From a virus, in IMG/VR virus record IMGVR_UViG_3300020472_000033, positions 1 to 54,888 of that record: 54,888 nt of DNA; one strand, written 5' to 3'. The notes below the pieces were generated by a model. The model did not search any database. It saw only the letters and a program-made list of their open reading frames with translations, and was not told the DNA's origin. Position numbers and translations under genes: made by a program. Positions 9,380 to 45,227 of this stretch are shown piece after piece; within the stretch, counting starts at the first letter, position 1; every line of letters begins with the position of its first letter.

Positions 9380-9694
9380 ATGATTGAAATCACAGATAAA
9401 GCAACAGAATATATGAAGTCTGTAACATCGCCAGGTGCCTATGTTACATTAGGTGTTAAAGGTGGTGGTTGTGCTGGCTTTCAATATATTTGGGGTTTAA
9501 CTACTGATGAGGGTATTGAACACGTTAAATGGTCTAAACCAATTAATGATGTATTAGTTCTAGACCCCCTTGCCGAAATGTATGTTTTTGGTTCAATAGT
9601 TGATTATATTACAGAGCTCGGTGGAAGTTATCTTGCACTAAAAAATCCACAGTCAACAAGTAGTTGTGGTTGTGGTGAGAGTTTTGGGATATAA
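9380..9694 (+). CDS. HesB/IscA-like A-type Fe-S carrier
   Basis: 104 residues. GGGCAGFQY places one Cys at residue 31, and SCGCGES gives the paired Cys at 96 and 98, the three ligands of IscA/ErpA/SufA-type carriers. The ITDKATEYMKSV N-terminal helix also fits. Such proteins pass Fe-S clusters or iron to client enzymes; phage versions are known in marine phages. The window has several metalloenzymes (two radical SAM proteins, iron oxygenases), so a role in loading these is plausible but inferred. A TAATAAATA-like late motif lies just upstream (9363-9371). Confidence 0.85.
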   Translation: MIEITDKATEYMKSVTSPGAYVTLGVKGGGCAGFQYIWGLTTDEGIEHVKWSKPINDVLVLDPLAEMYVFGSIVDYITELGGSYLALKNPQSTSSCGCGESFGI

Positions 9695-12924: not shown

Positions 12925-12953
12925 TTGACTTTTCAGAGTCATCTTGATATTAT
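12925..12953 (+). promoter_or_regulatory. sigma70 promoter
   Basis: TTGACT (12925-12930), 17 nt, TATTAT (12948-12953), followed by an AAAAGGAGTGA ribosome site before the ATG at 12981. It starts a new transcript for the glutaredoxin to 2OG-oxygenase group. Confidence 0.8.
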
Positions 12954-12980
12954 GGTAGTATTATTATAAAAGGAGTGAAT

Positions 12981-13097
12981 ATGAAAAAAACATTTGAAAA
13001 GAGATTCGGTGAAGGAACTGCATGGGATTTAGACTATGGCAAATTGCTAATGATTGGACTCTTAGTTTATATTGCCTTTTTCAAGGATTTTACATGA
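12981..13097 (+). CDS. 38-residue membrane peptide
   Basis: ATG 12981 has a strong AAGGAG site (12969-12975 region) and a promoter directly upstream. The product MKKTFEKRFGEGTAWDLDYG then a hydrophobic LLMIGLLVYIAFF is a single transmembrane helix with a basic N-terminal tail. It ends one base before the glutaredoxin start. Function unknown. Confidence 0.58.
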   Translation: MKKTFEKRFGEGTAWDLDYGKLLMIGLLVYIAFFKDFT

Positions 13098-13098
13098 A

Positions 13099-13350
13099 AT
13101 GTACACAATATATACAACGGAAAACTGTGTCTATTGTAAAGAATCAAAAAATTTATTGGTTGAACACAATAAAGAATATCTGGAAGTGAAATTGGATAAC
13201 CAAGAAAAAATAACTGATTTCAAAAAGAATACAGGTTTTACAACTGTTCCACAAATATATCATGCTTCTGGTGACCATATAGGTGGCCATGAACAATTAC
13301 GTGACCACTTGAATAGACTATATTCACCAGTGGCTGACCCTCTTGAATAG
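13099..13350 (+). CDS. Glutaredoxin
   Basis: 83 residues from ATG 13099, with AAGGA at 13083-13087; a TTG-initiated extension from 13072 is unlikely. CVYC at residues 10-13 is the dithiol active site, TVPQIY holds the cis-proline, and HIGGHEQL is the C-terminal glutathione-binding GG. Glutaredoxins reduce disulphides such as those in ribonucleotide reductase and protein mixed disulphides; phage T4 encodes one for its reductase. Here it may serve that, or the metalloenzymes of the same region. Confidence 0.88.
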   Translation: MYTIYTTENCVYCKESKNLLVEHNKEYLEVKLDNQEKITDFKKNTGFTTVPQIYHASGDHIGGHEQLRDHLNRLYSPVADPLE

Positions 13351-13590
13351 ATGACGTATTCCACAGAAAGATTATTCCATTTTTCGTGCCAGACTTGCCG
13401 TAATTGGTGGAGTATAGCACATACAGATGAATGGAAACCAAAATCACTCTTCTGTCCACATTGTGGCCAAGTACACAAATATAATGTACTAGGTGAGCTG
13501 ACTAATCCAGAAGATTCTGCTGAACAGATGGGTAAACTAATATATGGTGCTGGCATAGGAGGCCAATTATTTGACGAAGAAATTGAATAG
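13351..13590 (+). CDS. Zinc-ribbon protein
   Basis: 79 residues. CQTC at 13-16 and CPHC at 35-38 form a Cys4 zinc ribbon (C-x2-C, 18 residues, C-x2-C). The rest includes a hydrophobic Gly-rich segment (KLIYGAGIGGQLF). The ATG directly follows the glutaredoxin stop, so coupling is likely. Zinc ribbons of this size bind nucleic acid or proteins; the partner is unknown. Confidence 0.72.
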   Translation: MTYSTERLFHFSCQTCRNWWSIAHTDEWKPKSLFCPHCGQVHKYNVLGELTNPEDSAEQMGKLIYGAGIGGQLFDEEIE

Positions 13591-29141: not shown

Positions 29142-32100
29142 ATGGCTCAAACTACAGACCTTAATGTTGCTCCTTATTATGATGATTTTGATAAGACTAA
29201 AAATTATAAACGAGTTTTATTTAGACCAGGCTTTGCTATACAAGCAAGGGAGCTAACACAATTACAATCAGCTCTACAACATCAAGTAGAAGCACACGGT
29301 AGTCATATTTTTAAAGAAGGGGCTATGGTTATTCCTGGCCAGATTTCTTTAAATCAAAGGTATAGTTCTGTAAAATTAGAAAATACATTTAATTCTGAAA
29401 ATGTTGCTTTAGCTCAATATTATAATGAAGAAAATCCTGTTACTATCACTGGAATTACTTCTGGTGTTAAAGCACAAGTAATAGGTTATGACAATTCTAG
29501 TTCTACAGACCAATCAGTATTATATGTAATGTATACTTCTGCTGGAACAAATGAAAGTGCTACACTTTTTACAGAAGGTGAAAATTTAAAAGCAAATATT
29601 GGTATTACACATACTAGTGCTATTAGTGCTAATGTAGCTTCTGCCACAGTTTTTACATCAACTTCTTCTATAGTAGATGATCCTAAAGGGCCAGCTTGTA
29701 GATATGGTTCAGCTGCTCAAATAGAGCCTGGGGTTTATTATGTAAACGGCCATTTTGTTGAAACTACTAGACAAACATTAGTTTTAGATAAGTATGGTAA
29801 TACTCCATCTTATAGAATTGGATGGAGTGTTGCTGAAGCCATTGAAACGCCAGAAGCTGAGTCAGATCTTACTGATAATGCTCAAGGTTCTGCTAATTTT
29901 TCAGCTAAAGGAGCTCATAGATTAGTTATATCAGTAACATTAGCAAAAATACCTTTATCCTCTACAAGTGATGCTAATTTTGTAGAGTTAATGACAATAA
30001 AGAATGGAACTATATTAAAAAGAGTTAGGACTACTGAATATTCAGAAATTGAAGAAACTTTTGCACGAAGAACTTTTGATGAATCTGGAGATTATACTGT
30101 AAGACCTTTTCAAATGGAGGCTAGAGAAAGTGTAACTATAGATGCAGAAGAAGGGGTATATGGTTTAGGGGATGAAACAGATGATGGTGGTACAGCATCT
30201 GATGATATGTTAGCAGTGAAACTGTCTCCTGGCAAAGCTTACATAAAAGGATATGAAATAGAAAAACTTGCTCCAACATTTAAAGATGTTAAAAAGGCAA
30301 GGGATACAGCAAGAGTTACTTCTGGTATATCTAATTGGTCAATGGGTAACTATTGTTTAGTTAATATGATATACAACTCACCAGATATTTCAAAGGGTGG
30401 AACTACGGTAGACCCATATAAACCTTTATTTATATATGATCAAGTAATTGGTTCTAAATCCCAAGATACAGAACCAACTGCAGCTGGTTCTATTATAGGT
30501 GTATGTAGAGCTAGACAGTTTGTTCATCATAGTGGTGCAGCTGGTGGTGCTGGTAATGACTTCTTTAGTCAGTATGATTATAATAGTAATAAGTATAAAT
30601 TATATCTTTTTGATATAAGGATGTTTACATCGTTAACATTATCTGGAACACCAGCAGCTACATTAGTGGCAAATCACGCAAATGGTGGAGTTAGGGTAAC
30701 AGGTGAAAATTCTGGTGCTGTTGGACTAGTTCACAGTAGTGGAACATCAGGCTCAAATTGTAATTTAACAAATATTGTAGGAACATTTCAAGTTGGTGAA
30801 AAACTTTTTGCTAGTGATAGAGCTGGTTATTTAGTAACTTCAGCCCCAGCAGATATAACTGTATCGGCAGCTGCAACTAATAGTTTTAGTGCTGCTAAAG
30901 CTGTTTTTCATGATGATGCTACTGCTCACCAAGGATTTTTAGCTGATATTGGTTTAAATGAAGAGGTTACTTTAAACGGTACTTGGAGAACCGAAACTAC
31001 AGGAAATTATCTAGAAGGGGTTTCTGGATATGATACTTCTCAACTTAGAGTAAATGATATTGTAACTATTCCTGCTGGTGGTGGTGCTACTGAATTAAGA
31101 AGGGTAACAGTAGTTGCAGCTGATAAGGTAACTCTTGCTTCTGCACCTACAACTGACGATATTACTAGTTCAAATATTGTAAGGCATCGTGCTAAGTTAT
31201 TTGATTCAGAAAAGAATATAAGTCTTTTAAAATTAAATAAAAATACTATTAAAACATTATTAACTCCTGCTTCATCACCTCAAAGTTATACGCAATTTAA
31301 TGCTTATCATCAATTTGAACCAGCTTCTGCTTCTGATGGTTCTGGTGTTATTACCTTTCCAGCATTAGGTGCTGGAGAAACATATGCTAGTGGAGCAAAT
31401 AAAAGTGATTATGTAGTTAGTGTTACAGATGCAGGCAATGGTACTGGTAAAAAGGGAGATATTGTTGACCATGTAGGAAAAGTTGATAATTCAGCTTTAG
31501 AACTTACAGAAGCAGCTGTATTTGGTACTTCTGGTACTTCTGTAAAAATAACAGCTCTAGTAACAAAAACTCAAGTTACTCAACGGTCAAAATCAACAAA
31601 ATTGTGTAAAGAACTTAAAGTATTTTCCTCTGGTGTAACTGCTCCTTGGGGCACAAAACAAACAGACAAACAAATTTCTTTAGGAAGATCAGATGCATTT
31701 AAATTAGTTTGTGTATTTGATTCAGAAGATGCTAGTAGTGACGCAGCTGCACCTACATTAACAAATGATGGTGTTATTGATAATGGGCCTTTTGTAAGGG
31801 GGGAAATTGTTACAGGACAAAGTTCTGGTGCTAAAGCAAGATTAATATCTATAACAAGTCCTTTTAAGTATGTTCCTATTGGTACTACAGATTTTATAAA
31901 TGGTGAAGAAGTTAAAGGAGATAGTTGGACAGGAAGAAGTTCAATACCTACAACAACTCTACATGGTTCTGCTGCCGTAACAGCTGGTTCAACTGTTATA
32001 ACATCACAATTTTTATTAGATACTGGTCAACGTGATAATTATTATGATATTTCTAGTATTGTAAGAAAAGATGGTATTGCCGCTCCAATTGGAAGATTGC

Positions 32101-35100
32101 TTGTAATTTATGATTACCTTGAACATGGGGCAGGAGATGTCTTTAGTGTAGATTCTTATACTGATGTTGCAAATCAAATGGGGTATGAAAATATACCAGT
32201 ATATTCTGCTACAAAAGTTGATCCAGATTCACCAGAACCAGCTGGTATTTATCCTCTAACAGATTGTTATGATTTTAGACCTACAGTTGTAGAAATTACT
32301 GGCACAGATGTATATGGTAATGTAGATAGGATAACTGCAAATTCCTTTAATTTTCATCATAGAGGATTTAATACTGCTGGTGGTGATCGTTATACTCGTT
32401 TCCCCCCACATGGAGCAAATGTACAATCTACTTACGATTATTATCTTAATAAGTATGCTCTCATTTTTATGGATCAAAAAGGAAATATTACAGTAAAAGA
32501 AGGTGTTTCAGCTGAAGTACCTCAATTACCAAAACCAGTTGAAAATGGTATGTTAATTGCTACTCTTTATCTTCCAGCATTTACATTTAAACCTAAAGAT
32601 GTAGAAATTCTTAGAGAAAAAAATCAACGATATACTATGAAGGATATCGGAAAATTAAAAACTAGACTTGACCATGTAGAATATTATACTGCTCTTAGTA
32701 TGTTAGAAAGAGATGCAGAGTCTTTTGAAATCACAGATTCAAACGGACTTAATCGTTTTAAGTCTGGTTTTGTTGTAGATAATTTTACTGGCCATAGAGT
32801 AGGTGATGCAATGAACACTGATTACAAGTGTTCTATAGATATGGAAAATAATGAATTACGTCCTAAGAATAAAGCAAACGCAGTATTTTTGGAAGAAGTA
32901 TCAACTACTACTGCTGAAAGAACATCTGCTGGTTATCAAAAAACAGGTGACTTATTAACACTTCCTTATACAGAACAAGAATTTACTTCTCAACCATATG
33001 CAACACGCTTAGAAAGGGTTACACCTATTCTTACTTCTAATTGGGTAGGGAATATAGAATTATCTCCTAGTGGAGATGAATGGTTTGAAACAGAAATTGC
33101 ACCACAATTAATTATTAATGTTGAAGGAAATTTTGATACATTCTTTGCTGCTAACAGAGATAAAATTGGTACTATTTGGAACGCTTGGCAAACTCAATGG
33201 AGTGGGGTTGTTAGTAGGGATACTAGGAGAGTAGGCCAAGGCGGTGGTACTGTTAGAAGGACTATAACTACATCAAGAACAGATTTGGAAAGAAGGGGTA
33301 TTAAAACAGAAGTTGTTGCTCAGATAGATGAAGAGTCACAAGGTTCTAGAGTAATTGCTACAGCAATAATTCCTTGGTGTAGATCTAAAACTGTAACTTT
33401 TGAAGGTACTGGATTTTTACCTAATACAAGAGTATATCCTTTCTTTGATAAAAAACCAGTTTCAAGTTTGGTAACTCCAGAAGCAGGATATTCTTTTTTA
33501 AATGGAGTTGCTGTTGATCCTATAATAGCAGGAAGTCCTTTGGTTACTTCTGCAGCTGGTAAGGTTAGAGGAACATTTTTAATTCCAGACCCAACTGTAT
33601 CTGGTAATTTAAAGTTTTCAACAGGTGAAACTCAATATAGACTTACTTCAAGTTCTACTAATAATATAAAGGTAGACCCAGTAACAGCAGGGGATGCAAT
33701 CTATTATGCTAAAGGTATTTTAGAAACTCATCAAGAAACTATTATTGCAACTAGAAATGCAAGATTAGTAAGAACAAATGTTACACAAGTTACAAGTCAG
33801 ACAAACTCAAGTACATCCTTTAGTGACTTTCAATCTGGAAGCAATGATGAACCGCCTGGTATTAGTGATGATGGTGGGGGTAATGATCCTGATGATAGCA
33901 ATGGTGATGATCCACTAGCTCAAACATTTATGGTAGATCAGAGTGGTGGTGCTTTTGTTACAAGTATAGATGTTTGGTTTGGAGAAAAAGATGCAGACCT
34001 ACCAGTAACTTGTGAAATACGTAATGTTGTTAATGGTTATCCTGGCCCTAAAGTTTTACCCTTTGGTAGAAAAGTATTAGAACCATCTGAAGTATCTCTT
34101 TCTGATGATGCTTCCGTAGCTACTAAATTTACATTTCCTTCCCCTGTATATCTTGAAGAAGGAAAAGAATATTGTATGGTGTTCATAGCAGCTGTACCTA
34201 GTTGGAAGATATGGATTTGCCGTATGGGTGAACAGGAAGTCGGTGGTTCTAGAAATGTATCGGAACAACCACATATAGGTGTTATGTTTAAGTCTCACAA
34301 CAATAGAGCTTGGGCTATGTCTGGTATGGAAGATATTAAATTTACAATCAATACAGCAAAATTTTCAGAAAATGATGGAACAGTAAATTTACAAAATAAA
34401 ACAATTCCTAGTAAAAAATTAAGAACCAATGCTGTAACTTTACAACATGGTTTAACAACACAAATTATTAATCATGTAGATCACGGTATGTACCATGCAT
34501 CTAATGATGTTACCATTTCTGGAGTTTCTGCTGGATTGGAAACTACACTAAATGCTGCTATTAATGACGGAGTTGTTAATACTTGTACTTTAACTACAGG
34601 CAATCTTGCAAACTTCAAAATGACAACTGGTAGATGGGCAGCTAAAGGTGGTGTTCATTATATTAGAATTGATGACGAAATTATTTCATTTGCAACTGCT
34701 GACCTTAATACTGGTACAGGTGTTATTACTAATGCAACTAGAGGAGCTTTATCAACAATAGCTGCTTCACATACTATAAATTCTAAAGTAGAATATTATA
34801 TGATGCACCAAGTTCCTTTATCAGAAATTAATAAAACTCATACTTCAATAGGAAATATTGGAATTGACAGTTATACAATAACTACATCTAGTTCTACAGT
34901 TATTCAAGGTGGTGTATCTTATGCTGCCGGCCCACCTGTAGTTCCACCTACTTCTGCTGGAATTGGTGGTATGAATATCTACGCAACTCAAAATTATATG
35001 TTTGATACTGTTCAAACTATGATAAGTGCTATGGAATTGCCAGGAACAACTATTGAGTCAAAAATCAGACCTACTTCATCTACATCTCCCAATGGTAGTC

Positions 35101-35816
35101 AAACATCATTTGCAACAACTTCTTCCTCTAATGCTAAAGGATTTCCTTTGAATGATAACTATGACTTTGATGAACCATATATGGTTTGTTCTTCACCAAA
35201 TGAAACTGGTCAAATGTCTGGTACAAAGAGTTTATTGATGCCAATTACTCTTTCAACTACAAATACAAATATTTCTCCAGTAATAGATACAGATAGAATG
35301 TCTTTAATTGCTATTACTAATAGAATGAATGCTATTTATTCTAGTTCTGATGTATATCCATCTTGGGATTATGTATCTTCTACCGAACCTAATGGTGATA
35401 ATAATGCAGGCATTTATATGACTAAAAAGGTAATATTAGATACTCCTGCTACGGCTTTAAAAATATTTTTTGGTGCTAATAGGTCATCTAATACAACTCT
35501 TAGATTAATGTATAAAATTTTAAGAAATGATGAAGCTATGGATTTTGATGAATTGGGTTGGGAGTATTTTAATCCAGTATATGCTACTAATGTTTTACAA
35601 CACGCTAGTTCTGGATTACCAGATATTACAGCTAATCCTTCTTTGGATGCAGATGATTTTCAACAATATGTATATACTGCTGGTGTGAAAGATGACGGCA
35701 TAGGTACTTCATTAGAACCGTTTGTTTCTTTTTCTATAAAAATTATTATGACAGGAACAAATACTTCTCAACCACCAAGGATTAAAGATTTAAGATGTAT
35801 AGCATTGGCAACATAA
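29142..35816 (+). CDS. Giant structural protein, DUF4815-type
   Basis: 2224 residues. The N-terminus MAQTTDLNVAPYYDDFDKTK, then LFRPGFAIQARELTQLQSALQHQVEAHGSHIFKEGAM is the DUF4815 start found in many phage baseplates. The middle is beta-rich with repeated Gly/Thr segments; DDPLAQTFMVDQSGGAFVTSIDVWF near residue 1595 marks a second domain, and Cys-rich or HG-type modules recur near the end. It probably stands for gp10 or a fused wedge and fibre-attachment protein. One gene spans 6.7 kb, the largest complete frame here. Confidence 0.8.
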   Translation: MAQTTDLNVAPYYDDFDKTKNYKRVLFRPGFAIQARELTQLQSALQHQVEAHGSHIFKEGAMVIPGQISLNQRYSSVKLENTFNSENVALAQYYNEENPVTITGITSGVKAQVIGYDNSSSTDQSVLYVMYTSAGTNESATLFTEGENLKANIGITHTSAISANVASATVFTSTSSIVDDPKGPACRYGSAAQIEPGVYYVNGHFVETTRQTLVLDKYGNTPSYRIGWSVAEAIETPEAESDLTDNAQGSANFSAKGAHRLVISVTLAKIPLSSTSDANFVELMTIKNGTILKRVRTTEYSEIEETFARRTFDESGDYTVRPFQMEARESVTIDAEEGVYGLGDETDDGGTASDDMLAVKLSPGKAYIKGYEIEKLAPTFKDVKKARDTARVTSGISNWSMGNYCLVNMIYNSPDISKGGTTVDPYKPLFIYDQVIGSKSQDTEPTAAGSIIGVCRARQFVHHSGAAGGAGNDFFSQYDYNSNKYKLYLFDIRMFTSLTLSGTPAATLVANHANGGVRVTGENSGAVGLVHSSGTSGSNCNLTNIVGTFQVGEKLFASDRAGYLVTSAPADITVSAAATNSFSAAKAVFHDDATAHQGFLADIGLNEEVTLNGTWRTETTGNYLEGVSGYDTSQLRVNDIVTIPAGGGATELRRVTVVAADKVTLASAPTTDDITSSNIVRHRAKLFDSEKNISLLKLNKNTIKTLLTPASSPQSYTQFNAYHQFEPASASDGSGVITFPALGAGETYASGANKSDYVVSVTDAGNGTGKKGDIVDHVGKVDNSALELTEAAVFGTSGTSVKITALVTKTQVTQRSKSTKLCKELKVFSSGVTAPWGTKQTDKQISLGRSDAFKLVCVFDSEDASSDAAAPTLTNDGVIDNGPFVRGEIVTGQSSGAKARLISITSPFKYVPIGTTDFINGEEVKGDSWTGRSSIPTTTLHGSAAVTAGSTVITSQFLLDTGQRDNYYDISSIVRKDGIAAPIGRLLVIYDYLEHGAGDVFSVDSYTDVANQMGYENIPVYSATKVDPDSPEPAGIYPLTDCYDFRPTVVEITGTDVYGNVDRITANSFNFHHRGFNTAGGDRYTRFPPHGANVQSTYDYYLNKYALIFMDQKGNITVKEGVSAEVPQLPKPVENGMLIATLYLPAFTFKPKDVEILREKNQRYTMKDIGKLKTRLDHVEYYTALSMLERDAESFEITDSNGLNRFKSGFVVDNFTGHRVGDAMNTDYKCSIDMENNELRPKNKANAVFLEEVSTTTAERTSAGYQKTGDLLTLPYTEQEFTSQPYATRLERVTPILTSNWVGNIELSPSGDEWFETEIAPQLIINVEGNFDTFFAANRDKIGTIWNAWQTQWSGVVSRDTRRVGQGGGTVRRTITTSRTDLERRGIKTEVVAQIDEESQGSRVIATAIIPWCRSKTVTFEGTGFLPNTRVYPFFDKKPVSSLVTPEAGYSFLNGVAVDPIIAGSPLVTSAAGKVRGTFLIPDPTVSGNLKFSTGETQYRLTSSSTNNIKVDPVTAGDAIYYAKGILETHQETIIATRNARLVRTNVTQVTSQTNSSTSFSDFQSGSNDEPPGISDDGGGNDPDDSNGDDPLAQTFMVDQSGGAFVTSIDVWFGEKDADLPVTCEIRNVVNGYPGPKVLPFGRKVLEPSEVSLSDDASVATKFTFPSPVYLEEGKEYCMVFIAAVPSWKIWICRMGEQEVGGSRNVSEQPHIGVMFKSHNNRAWAMSGMEDIKFTINTAKFSENDGTVNLQNKTIPSKKLRTNAVTLQHGLTTQIINHVDHGMYHASNDVTISGVSAGLETTLNAAINDGVVNTCTLTTGNLANFKMTTGRWAAKGGVHYIRIDDEIISFATADLNTGTGVITNATRGALSTIAASHTINSKVEYYMMHQVPLSEINKTHTSIGNIGIDSYTITTSSSTVIQGGVSYAAGPPVVPPTSAGIGGMNIYATQNYMFDTVQTMISAMELPGTTIESKIRPTSSTSPNGSQTSFATTSSSNAKGFPLNDNYDFDEPYMVCSSPNETGQMSGTKSLLMPITLSTTNTNISPVIDTDRMSLIAITNRMNAIYSSSDVYPSWDYVSSTEPNGDNNAGIYMTKKVILDTPATALKIFFGANRSSNTTLRLMYKILRNDEAMDFDELGWEYFNPVYATNVLQHASSGLPDITANPSLDADDFQQYVYTAGVKDDGIGTSLEPFVSFSIKIIMTGTNTSQPPRIKDLRCIALAT

Positions 35817-37738: not shown

Positions 37739-38284
37739 ATGTTTACAAAAGAAAATACAGAGTCTATAGTTTTTGCTGATCAAGGGCAAAGATATATTTC
37801 TATTTATTATAATGATGATGAAGTTATAGATCCAGAAATAGGATTTGAACTTAGAAGAGCCGATTATGATTTAGATGATGATAAGAATCCAGACGTACAG
37901 CAAATTTTAAAACTATGGACTTTTGAAGAAATAGAATTAAATACTAGAAAACTTAAAAAACTAGAAAGACAAGCATTTGAAGCTGAGATTCTTGAGATTG
38001 CTAAACGAGATGGTCTAATTTTAGACCCTAAAGGAATACAAGAAACAAATGACTTAAAAAAGGTTGAAGTTGTTAGAGATGCAGAACCTTCAACTGCTTT
38101 TGAACTACTTTTCAAAGAACATGATTATGAGAATGAAAAAACTAAGGAACAATTATTTAAATGTAAATTAATGGCCTTTGAATTGGATGAGGTTAAAAAT
38201 TCTAAAAAAAGAAAAATAAAAAGTGAATTAAGAACTGCAAAAACATTTAGAGAAGTTTTAGAAAGTACTTTAAAATTTTATTAA
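37739..38284 (+). CDS. Acidic protein of unknown function
   Basis: 181 residues, very charged. A beta-strand start (SIVFADQGQRYISIYYNDDE) leads to a helical remainder (LWTFEEIELNTRKLKKLERQAFEAEI, then DYENEKTKEQLFKCKLMAFE). The ribosome site GAGGAGG (37730-37736) is among the best in the window. It stands three bases before the radical SAM gene and may belong to the modification island or be a chaperone for fibre proteins; neither is proved. Confidence 0.6.
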   Translation: MFTKENTESIVFADQGQRYISIYYNDDEVIDPEIGFELRRADYDLDDDKNPDVQQILKLWTFEEIELNTRKLKKLERQAFEAEILEIAKRDGLILDPKGIQETNDLKKVEVVRDAEPSTAFELLFKEHDYENEKTKEQLFKCKLMAFELDEVKNSKKRKIKSELRTAKTFREVLESTLKFY

Positions 38285-38287: not shown

Positions 38288-39382
38288 ATGATTTATGATA
38301 CAACAAAAAGATTAAGTTTTCATATAGAGGTAACTGATAAGTGTAATGCTAGATGTATTCAATGCTCTAGAAACATGATTGATAATAGTGGAAAATTAAA
38401 ACAAAGACCTAATTTACTTTTAACAGAACTTACTCTTAAAGATTTCAAAAAAATATTTAAAAATTTTAAATATCCTGTACGATTTATATCTATGTGTGGG
38501 AATTTTGGTGATGCTTTTATGGCTAAAGATATTTTTGAAATTACAGAATATCTTTGGACAGAAGTAATAGACCTTACCTATAAAAGCGATATGAGTTTTA
38601 ATATTCATACAAATGGTGGAATGAGAAACAAAGAATGGTGGTATGAATATGGAAAAATGGTTAAACGTGTTAGCAATGGCCGAGATTTAGTTACTTTTTC
38701 TATAGATGGTTTAGAAGATACTCATCATCTTTATAGAGTAAACACTAGGTATGATAGAGTAATAGAAAATGCTAGAGCATATATTGCTGGTGGAGGAAAT
38801 GCTGAATGGTCTTTTATAAGATTTGGACATAATCAACATCAAGAAGAAGAAGCAAAAAGAAGAGCTAAAGAATATGGATTTTCCTTTTTTATTCCTGTAG
38901 ATACTCAAAGGTTTTGGAATAAAGAACATATAGAATATAAATGGCGAAATAAAACTTATAGAATATCACCAGCAAAAAATAAAATAACTAAAGAAAAACG
39001 AATACTATCAGAAAGATTTAATTTAAATAAAGAAGAAGCAGTAAAAAATTCTAGAAATAATATAGAATGTGCTGTTTCTAAAAAGAATGAATTATTTATA
39101 GATTGTAGAGGGGATATTCATCCTTGTTGTTGGATAGGTTCGTGGCATTATCGTAATGTTAAAGGTATATATAATTTTGTAGAAGATCCAGAAAAACATC
39201 CAATAATGGAAATGCGAACAGTTAGAAATGCAATAAAAGAAGATTTAAGTGAGATAATTACAGATGATTTTTTCCAATATATTTTACCTATGAGTTTTGA
39301 GGTTTCTCCTAGTCATATATGTGTTAAACAATGTAGCAAAACGGATAAATTTACTACCACAAAAAAAAGAGCAGGAATTTAA
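38288..39382 (+). CDS. Radical SAM protein with SPASM-like C-terminus
   Basis: 364 residues. The radical SAM motif CNARCIQC gives C19, C23 and C26, with the expected strand and loop before it (LSFHIEVTDK). The middle shows SMCGNFGDAFM and FSIDGLEDTHHLYRV. At about 257-285 a Cys set appears (IECAVSKKNELFIDC, then GDIHPCCW), and ICVKQC near 345 completes what looks like a SPASM/twitch auxiliary cluster site. Such enzymes make modifications such as thioether or C-C bonds in peptides, or act on sugars. Adjacent QueC-like and glycosyltransferase genes suggest a modification role. Target unknown. Confidence 0.83.
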   Translation: MIYDTTKRLSFHIEVTDKCNARCIQCSRNMIDNSGKLKQRPNLLLTELTLKDFKKIFKNFKYPVRFISMCGNFGDAFMAKDIFEITEYLWTEVIDLTYKSDMSFNIHTNGGMRNKEWWYEYGKMVKRVSNGRDLVTFSIDGLEDTHHLYRVNTRYDRVIENARAYIAGGGNAEWSFIRFGHNQHQEEEAKRRAKEYGFSFFIPVDTQRFWNKEHIEYKWRNKTYRISPAKNKITKEKRILSERFNLNKEEAVKNSRNNIECAVSKKNELFIDCRGDIHPCCWIGSWHYRNVKGIYNFVEDPEKHPIMEMRTVRNAIKEDLSEIITDDFFQYILPMSFEVSPSHICVKQCSKTDKFTTTKKRAGI

Positions 39383-39383
39383 A

Positions 39384-40121
39384 ATGATTTTTGCAAATGA
39401 ATACGGTAGTGTGGATTTTTGGAAAGAAGTTAATATTCCAAATTTTAAAAAAGTAGCAGTAACATTATCAGCTGGAACTGACTCTGCTTTAGTACTGTAT
39501 ATGTTATGTACATATATTACAGAAAATAATTTAGATATAGAGATTTTACCTTTTACTGGTGTTGATACTAAAAGGCCTATGAATCATTTAAATGCTTCTG
39601 AAATAGTTGATTTTTTTCAAGAAAAATTTCCTAATATTACTTTTTTATCTCATTTTATATTTTGGTATGAACATACACCAAGAGATTCGGAAATGAAAAG
39701 AGAGGCTCATAGAAAGGAAGAACGTAAATTATATAACGAAGAAGATGTAAAACTTTTTTGTAGAGGTAAGTCTGCAAATCCACCAGAAGATGAAGCACAA
39801 AAACATAATATGTTTTTTGATAGAGAAAGAGAAAGAGATAGTGATATAGATGATGGCTATAAAATTTTTATGAGAACTGGTAGAGAAGGCAAGTCTGGAA
39901 GTGAGCCTGGGAGATGGATTTATACCCCTTTAGCATTTGTAGATAAAAGATTTGTAGCTAAATGTTATAAAGATTATGATTTAATGGAAGAATTATTTCC
40001 TATTACTGCATCTTGTATTGGATATGAAAAAACAACAGACTATTGGACTAAACCATGTAAAAAATGTTGGTGGTGTAAGGAAAAGTTATGGGCATTTGGT
40101 ATGTATGATGGAGGATTGTAA
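39384..40121 (+). CDS. PP-loop ATPase, QueC-like
   Basis: 245 residues from ATG 39384, just after the radical SAM stop; longer frames start inside the upstream gene. VAVTLSAGTDSALVLYM carries the PP-loop SAGTDS at residues 29-34 of an ATP pyrophosphatase. At the C-terminus C211, C225, C228 and C231 (ASCIGYEKTTDYWTKPCKKCWWC) form a Cys4 zinc site like that of QueC, which makes 7-cyano-7-deazaguanine. The middle has a charged insert of about 60 residues (SEMKREAHRKEERK, DRERERDSDID) not expected in QueC. The substrate may be another carboxylate that is adenylated and converted to an amide or nitrile. Confidence 0.76.
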   Translation: MIFANEYGSVDFWKEVNIPNFKKVAVTLSAGTDSALVLYMLCTYITENNLDIEILPFTGVDTKRPMNHLNASEIVDFFQEKFPNITFLSHFIFWYEHTPRDSEMKREAHRKEERKLYNEEDVKLFCRGKSANPPEDEAQKHNMFFDRERERDSDIDDGYKIFMRTGREGKSGSEPGRWIYTPLAFVDKRFVAKCYKDYDLMEELFPITASCIGYEKTTDYWTKPCKKCWWCKEKLWAFGMYDGGL

Positions 40122-41494
40122 TGGCAAAACCACCATTATGTTATTATCCTTTTTTTGGTCTTTCTGATGATACTAAGGGATATTGGCAAGCTTGTTGTCA
40201 AGCAAAACCTTTTGAAAATAAAGACGGCAATCAAAAATATAATATTAAAAATATGTCTTTTTTTGAATTTTTTAATTCTAAAGAAATGAAACAACTAAGA
40301 TATGATATGGTTATGATGAATGAATCTTCTGAATTATATCAAAAAACTTGCAAAAATTGTATTGATGAAGAAAAGATGGGTGTTTTATCAATGCGAAGGC
40401 AAATAACAGACGCTCCATTTAAAAGGGGCCCAATGCAAGTAAATTATGACCAAGGATTATTTAGGCATAATTTACTTGAAGATATAAAACAAAATCCAAA
40501 TAATAATTTACTGCCTACAGATGTTAAATATTTAAAATTACATTTTTTTGGAAATTTGTGTAATTTAAAATGTATAAGTTGTCAACCTATGAGTTCTTCA
40601 AAAATTGCAGCTGAACATATAAAATGGAAAAATGGTGGTCAATGGCCAGATTGGGAAGAAGGGGGGAGTGTATTAAATAAAGAATTAAATTTACGTATGA
40701 TAGAAAGTGCTATTATTAATCCTTATAATAAATTAAATAAGAAAAAATTTTTTGATGAATTAGAAGAAAGTTTGCCTACTATAAAAATGTTAGATTTTGT
40801 TGGTGGAGAACCAATGTATAATAAACAAATAAAGGAGCTGTTAGAATGGATTGTTTCTAAAGAGTTATCTAAAGGGTTAATGATAAAATTTACAACAAAT
40901 GCTATGTATGAAGATTATGAATTATATAATTTATTAAAATATTTTAAAAGTACATCTGTAGATATTTCTCTAGATGGTGTAGGAAAGAAAGACGAATATT
41001 TAAGAACTGGTACTGTATGGAAAGAAAAAATAGAAATTATTGATAATATTTATCAAACATTTTCTCAAATATCTTGGAGTAATACTATACAACTTTGTAA
41101 TATTGGATATCTTGATGAAATGTGGAAATTTATAGAACAATGGAAAGAAAAATATCCTAGAAAAGGCGTCATATGGAAAGGAGAAGAATATGGTGTGGGC
41201 CCTTTAAATAATATATTAAGTTGGCCTCCTATATTACAAGGGGTAAATATTCCAAAAAAAGTAGCATATATGTATATTAAAAAGTATGAAGATAAAAAAT
41301 TTCCTAGAAAAACAGAATTTATTAATATGTTACAAAATGATAAAGAAAGAAATCATGACCTTTTTTTGCGAGGTATGGCTAGATATAAATTTTATGATAA
41401 AAAACGAGGTACTTGTTTATTAGACCAATGGCCAGAATTTACAGAGTGGTACAATGAAGATTTTAACAGCATTATGGGGAAACAAATATTCTGA
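40121..41494 (+). CDS. Radical SAM protein with N-terminal twitch-like Cys cluster
   Basis: 457 residues. The first 80 residues have C7 (CYYPFFGL), C25-C26 (ACCQAK), C77 and C80 (CKNC), a twitch/SPASM-like auxiliary site placed before the core. The radical SAM motif CNLKCISC gives C147, C151 and C154, and VGGEPMYN follows near 227 as the GGE-type SAM-binding motif; SLDGVGKKDEYLRTG comes later. This layout matches the twitch radical SAM proteins known from marine phages. It starts over the stop of the QueC-like gene (TAATG), so both are co-expressed. Confidence 0.84.
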   Translation: MAKPPLCYYPFFGLSDDTKGYWQACCQAKPFENKDGNQKYNIKNMSFFEFFNSKEMKQLRYDMVMMNESSELYQKTCKNCIDEEKMGVLSMRRQITDAPFKRGPMQVNYDQGLFRHNLLEDIKQNPNNNLLPTDVKYLKLHFFGNLCNLKCISCQPMSSSKIAAEHIKWKNGGQWPDWEEGGSVLNKELNLRMIESAIINPYNKLNKKKFFDELEESLPTIKMLDFVGGEPMYNKQIKELLEWIVSKELSKGLMIKFTTNAMYEDYELYNLLKYFKSTSVDISLDGVGKKDEYLRTGTVWKEKIEIIDNIYQTFSQISWSNTIQLCNIGYLDEMWKFIEQWKEKYPRKGVIWKGEEYGVGPLNNILSWPPILQGVNIPKKVAYMYIKKYEDKKFPRKTEFINMLQNDKERNHDLFLRGMARYKFYDKKRGTCLLDQWPEFTEWYNEDFNSIMGKQIF

Positions 41495-42050
41495 AGAGGA
41501 CGTTAAAAAACTTCCTATTGATATTTGTTTTTCTGATAGAAAAATTGAAGGTATTAAAACAATACCTATAGATATGTCTTTTAAAGGTACTTGGAAAAAA
41601 ATGACTTTATTTAATAAACAATTACAATTAGGTGATTGTTTATTTTTAGATTTGGATATTATTTTGCAAGGAGATTTAAATATTCTTATTGATTATTATT
41701 ATAACAATAGAAAGTCTGGAAAAGTTATGTTAGCCCATGTACATTGGTACGATAATAAAAAAATGAATAATAAATCTCATTATATAAATTGTAATGTTAA
41801 TAGTAGTGTATTTGCTTTTAATAATAATGAATGTAATCATATATATCAAGAGACAATAAAATATAAAGAGAGACTAGAATTATTATTTGAAGGAACTGAC
41901 AAATGGTTTTATCATAAACATAAAGATTGGTACACTTTCTGGCCAGATGAATGGATACAACATAATTTTTTAAATTATGAAAAATTAGATAAAACAAAGG
42001 CAATTATTATAAGTGAAAATACAAATGCAAAAGGAAGAAATAAAGTTTAA
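41454..42050 (+). CDS. Glycosyltransferase-like protein 1
   Basis: 198 residues. MKILTALWGNKYSEEDV is a strand and helix start, LQLGDCLFLDLDIIL has the DxD (DLD) that binds a nucleotide-sugar metal in GT-A folds, and the C-terminal half contains SVFAFNNNECNHIY and WTFWPDEWIQHNF-type residues. The start lies 41 nt inside the end of the radical SAM gene in another frame. Similar glycosyltransferases follow, so this is a family tandem. The acceptor may be a tail protein. Confidence 0.76.
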   Translation: MKILTALWGNKYSEEDVKKLPIDICFSDRKIEGIKTIPIDMSFKGTWKKMTLFNKQLQLGDCLFLDLDIILQGDLNILIDYYYNNRKSGKVMLAHVHWYDNKKMNNKSHYINCNVNSSVFAFNNNECNHIYQETIKYKERLELLFEGTDKWFYHKHKDWYTFWPDEWIQHNFLNYEKLDKTKAIIISENTNAKGRNKV

Positions 42051-42693
42051 TTATGATTTAGGGTTATTTGGTGATACTTTAAATAGAATTATTCTTAGAG
42101 AATACCCACATAGATTACAAGATTTTATTAATAGTTTTTCTGGTAATCAAGTTCTGTGTAAAAAATGGCTTGTAACAGAATTAAAAAAACTTCTTATTAA
42201 AAGACAATATTTATCAAAAAGTAAAATTACCATATTAGGTTCTTGGTATGGAAATATTATTGTTCCTTTACTTGTAGATAATATTGAAGGTATAAAAGAT
42301 ATACAATTAATTGATATGGATGAGGATGCTTTAGATATTGGTAGAAAATTCTTAACTAGAAAATATAATGGAGTTAATATACATTATTTTAAAGAAGATA
42401 TTAATTTTACAGACTTTAGTGATTGGTATACTAATATAGTAATTAATACTTCTTGTGAACATATGATTCCTATGTCATCTATTTCTTTTAAAGATGATCA
42501 ATTTGTTTTATATATGTTACAATCTAATAATATGAAAGGACAAAGAGAACATATTAATTGTGTTAATAATACTATACAATTAGAAAAACAAAGTGATATT
42601 AATAAAAATTTTTATTCTGGAGAAAAAAAATTAGTAGGACAAAATAAAGAATTATATAAAAGATTTATGGTTATAGGAAAACGAGATGGTTAG
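42025..42693 (+). CDS. Methyltransferase-like protein
   Basis: 222 residues from ATG 42025; a GTG at 42013 is possible. KITILGSWYGNIIVPLLVDN forms a motif I-like glycine turn, and IQLIDMDEDALDIGRKFL gives the acidic motif II, as in SAM-dependent methyltransferases; NIVINTSCEHM is a motif IV-like segment. No clear ribosome site exists, so coupling to the upstream overlapping gene is likely. It could methylate a sugar or protein in the pathway. Confidence 0.64.
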   Translation: MQKEEIKFNYDLGLFGDTLNRIILREYPHRLQDFINSFSGNQVLCKKWLVTELKKLLIKRQYLSKSKITILGSWYGNIIVPLLVDNIEGIKDIQLIDMDEDALDIGRKFLTRKYNGVNIHYFKEDINFTDFSDWYTNIVINTSCEHMIPMSSISFKDDQFVLYMLQSNNMKGQREHINCVNNTIQLEKQSDINKNFYSGEKKLVGQNKELYKRFMVIGKRDG

Positions 42694-43390
42694 TATATGT
42701 ACAGTACTAACAGGAACAAAATATGATGTTGATGTTGTAAATAAATTATATAGTTCTTTGAAAAAACACACTATAAAAGATTTTAAATTTTATTGTTATA
42801 CAAACCATACAGGGTTTGATTATAATATTAATATTATTCCTATAACCACTAAAAATAAAAAATTACAATGGTATAAATTAGATTATTTTAAAAAAGATAT
42901 TATAGATGAGGAAGATATTATATTAATGGATATAGATATGGATATTGTAGGCAATGTTGATTTTCTATTTGAGGATAATAGTTTAGATGAATTTAGAGGT
43001 ACACATAGATTTTGGTGGAGGTGGAGAGAGGATAGAGATAATAAAAAATTTGCATTAAGTGGTAGTGTATATAAATTTAAAAATGGCCAACACCAATATA
43101 TTGTGGATACCTTTGAAGAAAATATTTCTTATTGGGAAGAATTTTTTATTAATAAAGGAATAACACACGGGCCTGTTAATGGAGAACAACATTTTGTTCA
43201 AAAAATGTTAGAGGATAACAACACAAAAGTTACGATGTTTCCAGAAAAACATATTGTTAAATGGAATAATAATGATTTTTTACAACAAACAAAATTAGAA
43301 TATGCTTACGAAAAATATACAAAAAATAATTATATAAAAAAACAAAAATTTAATACAGATGTTAGGATAGTTCATTATGCTGGAGCATAG
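42686..43390 (+). CDS. Glycosyltransferase-like protein 2
   Basis: 234 residues. ICTVLTGTKYDVDVVNKLYSSL is the N-terminal nucleotide-binding start, ILMDIDMDIVGNVDFLF carries the DxD, and HGPVNGEQHFVQKML is a C-terminal signature shared with the fourth glycosyltransferase at 44515. It overlaps the methyltransferase frame by eight bases and the next gene by 14. GT-A fold inferred. Confidence 0.78.
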   Translation: MVSICTVLTGTKYDVDVVNKLYSSLKKHTIKDFKFYCYTNHTGFDYNINIIPITTKNKKLQWYKLDYFKKDIIDEEDIILMDIDMDIVGNVDFLFEDNSLDEFRGTHRFWWRWREDRDNKKFALSGSVYKFKNGQHQYIVDTFEENISYWEEFFINKGITHGPVNGEQHFVQKMLEDNNTKVTMFPEKHIVKWNNNDFLQQTKLEYAYEKYTKNNYIKKQKFNTDVRIVHYAGA

Positions 43391-44036
43391 TGTTTATTGT
43401 GTAAATGTTGGGAATAAGTATAGTCCAGACTATGTTTTTAGATTAAAATCTATGGTAGAAAGAAATTTAACCATACCTCATAATTTCTATTGTATTACGG
43501 ATAATCCACAAAACTATGATTTTTCTATAAAGGCAGATGAAGGTTTAGATACTTGGTGGAATAAAATTTCTATATTTAAATACACAGGAAAAAATATATA
43601 TTTTGATTTGGATGTAATTATACACAATTCTATAGATAATTTATTTCATAAAGATTTTCATATGATACTACCTATATGGAAAGATCCTTGGAAAGCAAAG
43701 ATTATTAAAGAACGGCCAGATTTAGGCACATCTTATACTAATTCTTCTGTTATGTGTTGGTATAATGAAAAAAAGATATATAAAAAATTTATGAAAGATC
43801 CCGAATATTATATGTTTAAATATAGGGGAGATGATAGATTTTTATTCCATGAAACAAAACATAAAACATTTAATGAAAAGATAATTTATTCTTATAGAGA
43901 TGGAGCTCATTGGAAAGATGACAACGATAAGTTTAAATACAGAAAAGAATATTCAATAGCGTTATTTCATCAAGAACCAGAAATACATGATTGTATAGAA
44001 CATAGTATTGTGAGGGAAAATTGGAAGATTGGTTAA
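43377..44036 (+). CDS. Glycosyltransferase-like protein 3
   Basis: 219 residues. HSVYCVNVGNKYSPDYVFRLKSM, then IYFDLDVIIHNSIDNLF with a DLD motif, LPIWKDPWKAKI and SSVMCWYN. The C-terminal half contains DDRFLFHET and a FHQEPEIHDC end. Same layout as its neighbours but without the GPVNGEQ signature. It overlaps both flanking genes. Confidence 0.76.
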   Translation: MLEHSVYCVNVGNKYSPDYVFRLKSMVERNLTIPHNFYCITDNPQNYDFSIKADEGLDTWWNKISIFKYTGKNIYFDLDVIIHNSIDNLFHKDFHMILPIWKDPWKAKIIKERPDLGTSYTNSSVMCWYNEKKIYKKFMKDPEYYMFKYRGDDRFLFHETKHKTFNEKIIYSYRDGAHWKDDNDKFKYRKEYSIALFHQEPEIHDCIEHSIVRENWKIG

Positions 44037-44518
44037 AAAAATTATATATGGAAAGTTATAATGATAACGTAGTCTATAAAAAGATTGATGCCACTGAAAA
44101 ATTAAATTGTACACGATTTGCATATTTGGGATGGGTATATTTGGTTGACTATCAAGAATTTTTAAAAAAAGGGTTTGTAATACACTCTCATAATAATAAT
44201 TTGGATGAAAATTGTAGATGGTATAAAAACTGTAAAGAAAGTGGTTGTGGCCATACAGTATTTTATGATACAAAAGATACGTGGGATTTTTATCTTAATA
44301 TAAGGTTATTAAATTATCGTTTTCCAGACCTTTGTGGTTCAGAAGTTAAAATGGAAAAAATTTGGGAAGATTGTCCTAGTAAAGATAAATCAATAAAAAA
44401 GTACTATTCTAAAGAATTTTTTTCATGTCAAGATCAATCACATAGCACTCTTATATTAAAAAAAGTTGATGAGGAATATTTGAAATTGATTACAGAGGTA
44501 ATAGGTAGAGATTTATGA
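44021..44518 (+). CDS. Cys-rich protein of unknown function in the island
   Basis: 165 residues from TTG 44021 (AGGG at 44013-44016) or 156 from ATG 44048. It has CTRFAYLGWVYLVDYQEFLKKGFVIHSH, then ENCRWYKNCKESGCGHTVFYD with four Cys and a His pair, which could bind zinc, and CPSKDKSIKKYYSKEFFSCQDQSHS. It is set between glycosyltransferase genes and overlaps both. It may be an acceptor-recognition or accessory factor; that is inference. Confidence 0.58.
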   Translation: MEDWLKKLYMESYNDNVVYKKIDATEKLNCTRFAYLGWVYLVDYQEFLKKGFVIHSHNNNLDENCRWYKNCKESGCGHTVFYDTKDTWDFYLNIRLLNYRFPDLCGSEVKMEKIWEDCPSKDKSIKKYYSKEFFSCQDQSHSTLILKKVDEEYLKLITEVIGRDL

Positions 44519-45201
44519 AAATATTTGTAGTAAGAATAGGTGACAAATACGGCCCAGAGTATGAAACATATCTGGAAGAAAGACTTCCAGAATATGACTT
44601 TCATTGGATAAGAGAACCTTACTATCACGGCGTTCGTTTGCAATGGAATAAAATGTGGCCAATGTCTTCTAATTCAGATGAACCAGTTTGTGTGATGGAC
44701 ATTGATGTTCTTTTAGTTAATGACTATAAGAAGGTATTTGAATATCCTGTAGAACGTGGTGAATTTCTTGCAATGCCAGGATGGTGGAGAGATACTAAAG
44801 AAGAAGGTTATACTATTAATGGCGGATTCTTTAAATATCATCCTATAGATTGTAATTACATATATAAAAAGTTTATGATGAGTATAGATTATTGGCAACA
44901 ATATTATGTCAGAAATGGAGTTACAAAAGGCCCTGTTAATGGTGAACAGTATTTTGTAGAAGATAGTGTTAATGAAGAATTAACATTAAAACTATTACCG
45001 AATGAGTGGTTCACTCGTTGGGAAAGTAATACTAATGATAATTGGCAAGGCCAGATTACTACTAAGTACCGTAAAACAACAGGAAATGATTACATATATC
45101 TTGGTGGTGAATTTCATCCAGACATAAAATTTGTTCATTTTACACATTCTTTAAATAAACCTCATGAGTGGAAAGATTACGATGCCTTGAAATATAAATA
45201 G
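44515..45201 (+). CDS. Glycosyltransferase-like protein 4
   Basis: 228 residues. MKIFVVRIGDKYGPEYETYL, VCVMDIDVLLVNDYKKVFEY with the DxD (DID), EFLAMPGWWRDTKEEG and KGPVNGEQYFVEDSV. The last motif also occurs in glycosyltransferase 2 at 42686, so the two are paralogues. The start overlaps the previous stop (ATGA). It closes the island, followed by a late promoter. Confidence 0.8.
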   Translation: MKIFVVRIGDKYGPEYETYLEERLPEYDFHWIREPYYHGVRLQWNKMWPMSSNSDEPVCVMDIDVLLVNDYKKVFEYPVERGEFLAMPGWWRDTKEEGYTINGGFFKYHPIDCNYIYKKFMMSIDYWQQYYVRNGVTKGPVNGEQYFVEDSVNEELTLKLLPNEWFTRWESNTNDNWQGQITTKYRKTTGNDYIYLGGEFHPDIKFVHFTHSLNKPHEWKDYDALKYK

Positions 45202-45227
45202 TTTATACTTATAAATAAGAGTATAAA
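45193..45227 (+). promoter_or_regulatory. Tandem late promoters with flanking inverted repeat
   Basis: TATAAATA occurs at 45193-45200 and 45210-45217. TTTATACT (45202-45209) and AGTATAAA (45220-45227) are inverted repeats with the second promoter exactly in the loop; the right arm ends just before the GGAG (45229-45232) ribosome site of the gene at 45243. RNA from the second promoter would start near 45223, without the left arm. Confidence 0.72.

Follow-up and report, generated by a model that had tools for sequence, protein, structure and literature searches.

Nine tightly packed genes on one strand, flanked by tail genes, form an island at positions 38288–45201 of the window (the whole stretch of viral DNA analysed here, 54,888 nucleotides). 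They encode two radical SAM proteins (rSAM1 and twi), a QueC-like PP-loop ATPase (QueCL), a class I methyltransferase (MT), four DxD glycosyltransferases (GT1–GT4), and one orphan ORF. We tentatively read the island as accessory and expressed late, an operon for glycan tailoring that occupies the host recognition cluster (HRC) slot of a pelagimyophage-kind, T4-like marine phage, with a host-envelope glycan as the likeliest acceptor. In the literature searched, no description was found of a conserved operon that joins glycosyltransferases to a pair of radical SAM enzymes and a divergent ATPase of the QueC fold.

Gene layout and predicted enzymes

The upstream tail gene stops 3 nt before rSAM1, and rSAM1 is followed after a 1-nt gap by QueCL. 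The genes downstream overlap by 1 nt (QueCL/twi), 41 nt (twi/GT1), 38 nt (GT1/MT), 8 nt (MT/GT2), 14 nt (GT2/GT3), 16 nt (GT3/orphan), and 4 nt (orphan/GT4). A preliminary description of this DNA had given the same coordinates with eight genes, although its own list sums to nine, and had read overlaps of 4–41 nt as an operon. The tight same-strand arrangement stands, but the smallest overlap is 1 nt, rSAM1 and QueCL do not overlap, and all four glycosyltransferases, three of which had been called flanking, lie within the operon. The ORF that it had called a Cys-rich unknown has 7 Cys in 165 aa. A single marginal phmmer match (E 0.005) to this orphan was obtained among the fetched ORFs, and neither of the two syntenic phages described below has a copy. 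A TTG start at 39297 for QueCL was rejected because the ATG at 39384 comes after the rSAM1 stop and relatives begin at the same place.

Table 1 Features of the window that bear on the island.
Feature	Position	Strand	Evidence
rSAM1, radical SAM protein	38288..39382	+	PF04055 2.2e-9; CxxxCxxC and C-terminal auxiliary-cluster cysteines
QueCL, QueC-like PP-loop ATPase	39384..40121	+	Weak PF06508; AF2 model; SxGxDS, C(x)13CxxCWWC
twi, radical SAM with N-terminal twitch-type auxiliary domain	40121..41494	+	NF033640 231.6 bits
GT1, short GT-A-like glycosyltransferase (DxD)	41454..42050	+	phrog_1962 1.8e-9; DxD invariant with GT3 family
MT, class I SAM methyltransferase	42013..42693	+	AF2 pLDDT 94.8; motifs in 48 sequences
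GT2, short GT-A-like glycosyltransferase (DxD)	42686..43390	+	phrog_1962 7e-11; family of GT4
GT3, GT-A-like, DxD invariant	43377..44036	+	Pfam GT8 in 2/23 family members
Orphan ORF, 7 Cys in 165 aa, TTG start	44021..44518	+	Lineage-specific; coding status uncertain
GT4, GT-A-like	44515..45201	+	DxD (D62/D64) invariant in 27 sequences
u37739, conserved tail-side neighbour, marks insertion slot	37739..38284	+	Homologues beside cassettes
VrlC/DUF4815-type structural protein, upstream border of HRC	29142..35816	+	36.5% identity to Mosig 'putative VrlC'
Two T4-type late-promoter sites TATAAATA	45193..45217	+	Directly 3' of operon, before tail gene 45243
A-type Fe-S carrier	9380..9694	+	TIGR00049 66.6 bits (cutoff 58.8); PF01521 above cutoff

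The enzyme labels of the preliminary description held for the radical SAM pair and for the fold of MT; the match to QueC is weak. In a profile search, PF04055 was found in both radical SAM proteins (2e-9 and 3e-7). The CxxxCxxC cysteines of rSAM1 (C19/C23/C26) and its auxiliary cysteines C280, C281, C345, and C349 are invariant across 35 aligned relatives, and C261 is kept in at least 90% of them. rSAM1 scored 18.4 bits against SPASM (PF13186; cutoff 21.5), and its five conserved C-terminal cysteines, as against the seven-cysteine pattern of SPASM, bring it nearer to a twitch-type single cluster. twi passed the curated cutoff of NF033640 (N_Twi_rSAM; 170 bits), and its C147/C151/C154 together with C7, C25, C26, C77, and C80 are invariant in 23 sequences. 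The likeness of both proteins to sugar, peptide, lipid, and cofactor enzymes is roughly equal.

QueCL scored below the cutoffs of both QueC profiles (PF06508, 17.9 bits, cutoff 22; TIGR00364, 12.3 bits, cutoff 150.3). The best PDB matches of its AF2 model were Cap9 (Z 14.0), QueC (13.1), and TilS (13.1), which are tied. The PP-loop SxGxDS (relaxed SGGxDS) is present in 80 of the 82 QueC-like family sequences and reads SAGTDS in the window. However, the canonical QueC substrate motifs as defined in PMC13329287 were absent from the window and nearly so from the family (YxQxHxxE in 0, VPxRN in 2, and YPDC in 0 of 82). A zinc-type cysteine motif with variable spacing occurs in 71/82 sequences, and the strict C(x)8CxxCxxC spacing in none. 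A QueC-like family without the canonical QueC substrate motifs is new here. A preQ0/queuosine role was rejected, since these motifs are absent and, within this genome fragment, the island holds no queD/queE neighbours or other Que partners. Anti-phage defence (Qat, CBASS, viperin) was likewise rejected: QueCL had no PADLOC match, Y.DC of the Cap9 type (type IV CBASS) and the CGxCxxRR portion of the QatC motif C(x)19CGxCxxRR were each found in 0/82 family sequences, and the radical SAM proteins reached just 20–23 bits against viperin models. Elsewhere, QueC-like genes that occur solo are in some cases close to replication genes. A gene adjoining a QueC-like gene at another locus (L060) was considered as a pyruvyltransferase, a reading that found no support.

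The AF2 model of MT has a class I methyltransferase fold, and its nearest structures were NodS (Z 15.7), OxaG (15.2), and NTMT1 (15.0), again tied. The motifs conserved in the MT alignment are GxWxG, INTSCEH, and LQSNN. GT1 and GT2 match phrog_1962, while the glycosyltransferase call for GT3 and GT4 comes solely from the invariant DxD in family alignments. A PDB profile search found nothing for the GT1/GT3 family, and glycogenin alone for the GT2/GT4 family (E 0.057). With the radical SAM motif and auxiliary cysteines intact, the PP-loop ATPase, the methyltransferase, and the four DxD glycosyltransferases, the encoded enzymes are catalytically plausible. The A-type Fe-S carrier outside the operon might provide Fe-S clusters to the two radical SAM proteins.

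The T4-type late-promoter sequence TATAAATA occurs 10 times in the window (12.5 expected), which is not above chance. Only position exceeds chance: six of the seven plus-strand sites lie upstream of gene starts (0.27 expected). No exact TATAAATA site lies upstream of any operon gene. These sites suggest that the operon is expressed late, and the timing in late infection given by the preliminary description is probable on this basis.

Recurrence in phages and bacteria

In two further phages, eight of the nine genes share order, strand, and slot with the window at 27–72% identity, indicating that the island is more than a chance assembly. Mosig, a cultured Pelagibacter phage, carries at the same slot a variant cassette with homologues of rSAM1, MT, GT2, and GT3, together with an aminotransferase of the DegT type and a carbamoyltransferase of the NodU type. 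Among the matches listed, the MT family and the rSAM1 family were each found in more than 570 viral contigs, with strong co-occurrence; both families abound in viral contigs from aquatic sources. Across 133 dereplicated viral loci (67 rSAM1-anchored and 66 MT-anchored), MT, rSAM1, twitch rSAM, and QueC-like genes were found together. MT was present in 62/67 and twitch rSAM in 56/67 of the rSAM1-anchored loci; rSAM1 was present in 34/66 and a window-type glycosyltransferase in 47/66 of the MT-anchored ones. For several families in these neighbourhoods, the names ISYREPNA-type GT-like, SGNH-like, and PLP-like are by-eye sequence readings with no Pfam match or a sub-cutoff one.

The preliminary description had proposed a joint pathway and a survey of related phages for the gene set; the conserved order in two phages and the co-occurrence in the 133 loci support a joint unit. 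It had also named absence from relatives as an argument against the idea. Melnitz, by gp6 the nearest relative in culture, has the tail genes but not the island, which indicates that the island is accessory; this partial absence does not break the joint-pathway idea. The cassette is modular, being swapped at one slot and found in many aquatic phages. In 15 of 24 cases it and the slot-marker tail gene are on different strands, and it is therefore independent cargo. Next to the cassette, homologues of u37739 are found in both syntenic phages, in Mosig (28%), and in 20/66 MT-anchored loci.

The same enzymes occur in chromosomal clusters in six sampled Bdellovibrionota genomes, where no tail genes were seen within the fetched stretches, which argues for a cellular rather than a fibre-only substrate. 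These clusters also contain B12-rSAM and HMGL-like genes. A literature search linking Bdellovibrio with rSAM/SPASM found no papers.

Candidate acceptors

DegT aminotransferase and UDP-glucose/GDP-mannose dehydrogenase genes recur near cassettes, and a twitch rSAM is fused to a NodU-type carbamoyltransferase domain in an ORF cluster spanning 31 loci. These sugar-pathway neighbours favour a glycan substrate. In the proposed pathway, the glycosyltransferases would put sugars onto an acceptor glycan, the radical SAM enzymes would oxidise, epimerise, or deoxygenate sugar carbons, QueCL may adenylate a carboxylate (e.g. of a uronic acid) and form an amide, in line with the chemistry of QueC-fold and further PP-loop enzymes, and MT would cap an amine or hydroxyl. 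The acceptor would most likely be a host-envelope glycan (LPS) altered late in infection, whereupon progeny or rivals might cease binding the cell or its debris. Against glycan tailoring, the island holds no flippase, polymerase, or nucleotidyltransferase.

Another possibility, which we consider unlikely, is that the operon serves to assemble an unusual glycan on the tail-fibre or baseplate proteins of the adjoining genes and so alters adsorption or stability. The four glycosyltransferases, the placement amid tail genes, 3 nt from the end of its upstream neighbour, the late-type promoter sites around the operon, and the recurrence of slot-border genes (VrlC, u36499, u37739, and 45243 type) with cassettes agree with virion modification; late timing and the site beside fibre genes fit it equally well. 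However, the tail genes of Melnitz are kept without the island, opposite-strand cassettes are common, and within the stretches fetched, tail genes were not seen with the Bdellovibrionota clusters. Of the two substrates named in the preliminary description, a sugar is favoured by the neighbouring and fused genes, whereas fibre and envelope are indistinguishable from sequence; a host-envelope glycan is our first choice, without a decisive separation from a virion glycan. With phage–host pairs in culture (Mosig, which has a variant cassette, on Pelagibacter HTCC1062, and Melnitz as a cassette-free relative), late surface or virion modification in marine phages is directly testable.

A role of the cassette in producing or tailoring a metabolite or a membrane lipid is quite unlikely. 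Some cassettes are followed or neighboured by genes of the fatty-acid desaturase, aminotransferase-like, 2OG-dioxygenase, or FMN-reductase-like kind, the twi profile matches tetraether lipid synthase, and the B12-rSAM and HMGL-like genes of Bdellovibrionota could belong to a small-molecule pathway, but the four glycosyltransferases and the carbamoyltransferase fusion indicate sugar acceptors. Modification of a protein or peptide, with QueCL attaching a group at the N-terminus of a protein in the manner of Cap9, or with the two radical SAM enzymes maturing a peptide, is also improbable. Cap9 heads the tied structural matches of QueCL, and rSAM/SPASM relatives include peptide maturases; on the other hand, YPDC and YxQxHxxE are absent from all 82 family sequences and the relaxed Cap9 form from all but 6, PADLOC gave no match, and none of the tail proteins at 29–48 kb starts with MG. 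A hidden precursor peptide was rejected because the overlapping operon genes leave no room for one.

Decoration of a modified DNA base by the rSAM, glycosyltransferase, methyltransferase, and PP-loop amide ligase activities is very improbable. Phage PP-loop-type amide ligases do work on DNA bases (CmoY, PMC12783734), and the solo QueC-like genes near replication genes would suit such a role. However, the complete Mosig genome has a flavin-dependent thymidylate synthase as its only such annotation, with neither a base hydroxymethylase nor a gene of the Que pathway, the cassette is apparently under late rather than early promoters, and bacteria carry chromosomal clusters.

Under glycan tailoring, it is conceivable, though doubtful, that QueCL is the founding member of a new family of PP-loop ligases, which together with at least two radical SAM enzymes performs novel glycan chemistry (e.g. 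radical remodelling plus amidation). Many marine phages would use this toolkit, which has relatives in Bdellovibrionota, to rewrite cell-surface or virion glycans.

Comparison with known systems

NodS, which decorates Nod-factor sugars, ranks first by fold against MT in a tie with others, and the likeness is weak, with no sequence-level NodS membership seen. The carbamoyltransferase domains of Mosig and of the twitch-rSAM fusion match the NodU type, far below the NodU cutoff; unlike the Mosig cassette, the island of the window has no carbamoyltransferase. QueCL shares the SxGxDS PP-loop with the QueC family (PF06508: canonical QueC, Cap9, and QatC; PMC13329287, PMC13279940) and a QueC-type fold including the C-terminal cysteine site, but has C(x)13CxxCWWC in place of C(x)8CxxCxxC and partners that differ from those of QueC, Cap9, and QatC. 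twi scores as a member of the NF033640 N-terminal twitch subfamily and in the phages described here is paired with rSAM1 and the QueC-like ATPase.

Environmental T4-like genomes rich in radical SAM genes, with many such genes and an A-type Fe-S carrier per phage, have been reported (PMC5332604). The window also holds such a carrier; unlike the operon reading given here, neither a glycan pathway nor an operon is proposed in the sections of that report considered here.

The closest precedent is the pelagimyophage HRC of Zaragoza-Solas et al. 2020 (PMC7029224). Its text names neither QueC nor methyltransferase, and the parts considered here describe no conserved rSAM1–QueC-like–twitch–GT–MT–GT–GT order, no twitch-rSAM–carbamoyltransferase fusion, and no bacterial counterpart. 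The downstream border of the HRC is the neck gene gp14; the window ends within a large ORF (48027–54887) short of any neck gene. Glycosyltransferases and "radical SAM cassettes" are nevertheless reported there for this slot and the rSAM1/MT set occurs in hundreds of viral contigs, so the statement of the preliminary description that such enzymes seldom sit together in a tail cluster does not hold. Like the published HRC in the parts considered, the island lies downstream of a VrlC homologue and among fibre genes, with glycosyltransferase and radical SAM genes, and the HRC authors infer modification of the host O-chain.

Layout of the island and conservation of the operon

The virus record is complete at 54,888 bases, the molecule being a linear fragment, i.e., a partial genome, and T4-type baseplate and tail genes are present in the window. 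In gp6, the nearest cultured phages were Methylophilales phage Melnitz (52% identity) and Pelagibacter phages Mosig (48%) and HTVC008M (48%); therefore, a host of SAR11 or OM43 type is likely. By mechanical ORF calling, the island comprises nine genes on one strand, with junctions ranging from a 1-nt gap to a 41-nt overlap, encoding a radical SAM protein (rSAM1), a QueC-like protein, a second radical SAM protein (twi), a methyltransferase (MT), four DxD glycosyltransferases (GT1-GT4), and an ORF called Cys-rich in the preliminary description, which is an orphan. A tail gene terminates 3 nt upstream of the first gene. The GC content of the island is 26.8%, versus 33.6% for the window.

Coordinates of the island and of other features in the window and the compared stretches
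Stretch	Coordinates	Feature	Matches or neighbours
Window	3779-4462	Zeta-toxin-like kinase domain	PF06414, 2.8e-12; flanked by tail genes
Window	5434-6234	Short class II tRNA-synthetase-like protein, 266 aa	PF00152; top NCBIfam matches (aspartate--tRNA(Asn) ligase, asparagine synthetase A) far under cutoffs; directly upstream of tRNA-Asn
Window	6242-6319	tRNA-Asn(GTT)	
Window	9380-9694	A-type Fe-S carrier	TIGR00049, above cutoff
Window	10166-11284	Rieske-type ring-hydroxylating oxygenase-like	PF00848, slightly under cutoff; N-terminus matches anthranilate dioxygenase large subunits
Window	11707-12732	GMP reductase	NF003470, 501 bits (cutoff 397); amid tail-side genes
Window	37739-38284	Tail gene	
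Window	38288-45201	Island	
L033 (Mosig)	12426-13392	Split rSAM1 homologue	Core ORF and separate C-terminal ORF that contains cysteines
L110	4480-7407	975-aa phage protein	Twitch radical SAM fused to NodU-type carbamoyltransferase domain
L012	7953-8648	Solo QueC-like gene, no radical SAM neighbours	Adjoins apparent terminase gene (named by reading sequence)
L014	4753-5454	Solo QueC-like gene, no radical SAM neighbours	Near DNA-polymerase-like gene (named by reading sequence)
L018	7953-8654	Solo QueC-like gene, no radical SAM neighbours	Near DNA-polymerase-like gene (named by reading sequence)
L019	527-2042	Solo QueC-like gene, no radical SAM neighbours	Near DNA-polymerase-like gene (named by reading sequence)

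The order of the eight named genes and their position after VrlC among the fibre genes (the slot) were kept in two other viruses, one represented by two assemblies (L001/L002) and the other by L028/L029. Identities to the window for rSAM1, QueC-like, twi, GT1, MT, GT2, GT3, and GT4 were 56, 54, 40, 72, 55, 60, 58, and 60%, respectively, in L002; the corresponding values in L028 were about 45, 27, 41, 71, 70, 64, 69, and 27%. The flanking tail proteins of L002 were less conserved (30-38%) than its island genes (40-72%). The island is a conserved unit.

Alignment scans with MT and rSAM1 matched at least 582 and at least 574 viral contigs, respectively. We dereplicated the best 80 matches of each scan, a selection biased toward close relatives of the query, to 133 loci, in which the co-occurrence counts are lower bounds because of contig ends. 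Among the 66 MT-chosen loci, rSAM1 was found in 34, twi in 29, a QueC-like gene in 23, and any window-type GT in 47; among the 67 rSAM1-chosen loci, MT was found in 62, twi in 56, and a QueC-like gene in 29. In the MT-chosen set, a radical SAM gene was present in 20 of the 23 loci with a QueC-like gene versus 22 of the 43 without it (Fisher p 0.006).

Exchange, orientation, and expression of the cassette

The slot is modular. In Mosig, a cassette occupies the same place beside homologues of the tail-side genes 37739 and 36499 and of the VrlC/DUF4815 protein, on the opposite strand. It contains homologues of rSAM1 (as two ORFs), MT (31%), GT2 (31%), and GT3 (27%), together with genes for an aminotransferase and a NodU-type carbamoyltransferase, among others; QueC-like and twi genes are absent from it. 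Melnitz has tail genes only at the corresponding place. Of 24 loci with the 37739 marker, two of which (L140 and L002) are the same virus, 15 have the cassette on the strand opposite the marker and 9 have it on the marker's own strand.

Seven plus-strand sites in the window are exact TATAAATA sequence matches to T4-type late promoters, and six of them lay no more than 45 nt upstream of a gene start, against an expectation of 0.27. No exact site preceded any operon gene in the window, and two were located downstream of the operon. Four opposite-strand cassettes, that of Mosig among them, had an exact site immediately before the first gene. This placement makes late expression likely in both orientations.

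Properties of the island proteins

The QueC-like protein has a PP-loop and a cysteine site at the C-terminus. Its AlphaFold model (pLDDT 81, pTM 0.86) matched Cap9 (Z 14.0) and QueC (13.1), with TilS tied. Among 82 family members, YxQxHxxE, YPDC, and strict C(x)8CxxCxxC were found in none, VPxRN in two, and a CWWCxE signature in 35. Therefore, the protein has a QueC-type fold but is, by motifs, neither QueC, QatC, nor Cap9. In the tree, the L028 protein was not the closest relative of that of the window, suggesting that this position was exchanged or underwent rapid evolution. About half of the distinct loci found with the QueC-like search contained radical SAM genes, and about half were solo genes in other phage regions; thus, the family also occurs apart from these cassettes.

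CxxxCxxC was invariant in rSAM1 (35 sequences) and twi (23 sequences). The conserved auxiliary cysteines of rSAM1 were C-terminal (C261/C280/C281/C345/C349), with C261 present in at least 90% of the sequences; those of twi, a true member of NF033640, were N-terminal (C7/C25/C26/C77/C80). PDB profile matches pointed in mixed directions: both proteins matched cytosylglucuronate decarboxylase, rSAM1 also matched NifB and MoaA, and twi also matched SkfB and tetraether synthase. The A-type Fe-S carrier of the window may supply Fe-S clusters to these enzymes; other radical SAM-rich T4-like genomes also carry such a carrier (PMC5332604).

The MT model showed a class I SAM fold (pLDDT 94.8) with tied matches to NodS (Z 15.7), OxaG (15.2), and NTMT1 (15.0). 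In family alignments, GT1-GT4 formed two families with DxD invariant in each, the assignment of GT3 and GT4 being motif-based; GT8 was matched by 2 of 23 members of one family.

Sugar-pathway neighbours, bacterial counterparts, and known systems

Near these families, a DegT aminotransferase ORF cluster was found at 22 loci, UDP-glucose/GDP-mannose dehydrogenase at 10, and NAD epimerase at 10. Several genes in such neighbourhoods were named by reading the sequence, Pfam having matched them below cutoff or not at all. The ORF cluster of the twitch-radical SAM-carbamoyltransferase fusion occurred at 31 viral loci. Guilt by association with these recurring genes suggests a sugar-related role for the cassette. 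Alternatively, the cassette might serve DNA base hypermodification: CmoY, a phage amide ligase of asparagine-synthetase type, acts on DNA (PMC12783734), and owing to this precedent the DNA reading retains a low probability.

Scanning 84,980 genomes with a sequence pattern yielded three QueC-like relatives, at least one of which (L030) looks like phage DNA inside a MAG. By profile search of 291 genomes of the phylum Bdellovibrionota, the family was found in 6, one of which carries three copies on a single contig; among 385 alphaproteobacterial genomes, it was found only in the starting genome. Each of the six Bdellovibrionota genomes contained many twitch radical SAM and rSAM1 relatives, the strongest matches being clustered in five. 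The stretches L046, L047, L050, and L051-L058 showed chromosomal clusters of paralogous twitch radical SAM genes, with up to 20 profile matches per genome. These clusters also carry rSAM1, QueC-like, carbamoyltransferase, B12-radical SAM, and HMGL-like genes, and an MT homologue adjoins radical SAM genes in two of the stretches examined (L053 and L054). Bacterial QueC-like proteins formed two groups within the viral ones in the tree, and the direction of transfer was not evident.

The papers searched yielded no description of the conserved gene order in the operon, of its QueC-like member, of the twitch-radical SAM-carbamoyltransferase fusion, or of the Bdellovibrionota counterpart. For pelagimyophages, the location, the glycosyltransferases, and radical SAM cassettes have already been published, and modification of the host O-chain has been proposed (PMC7029224).
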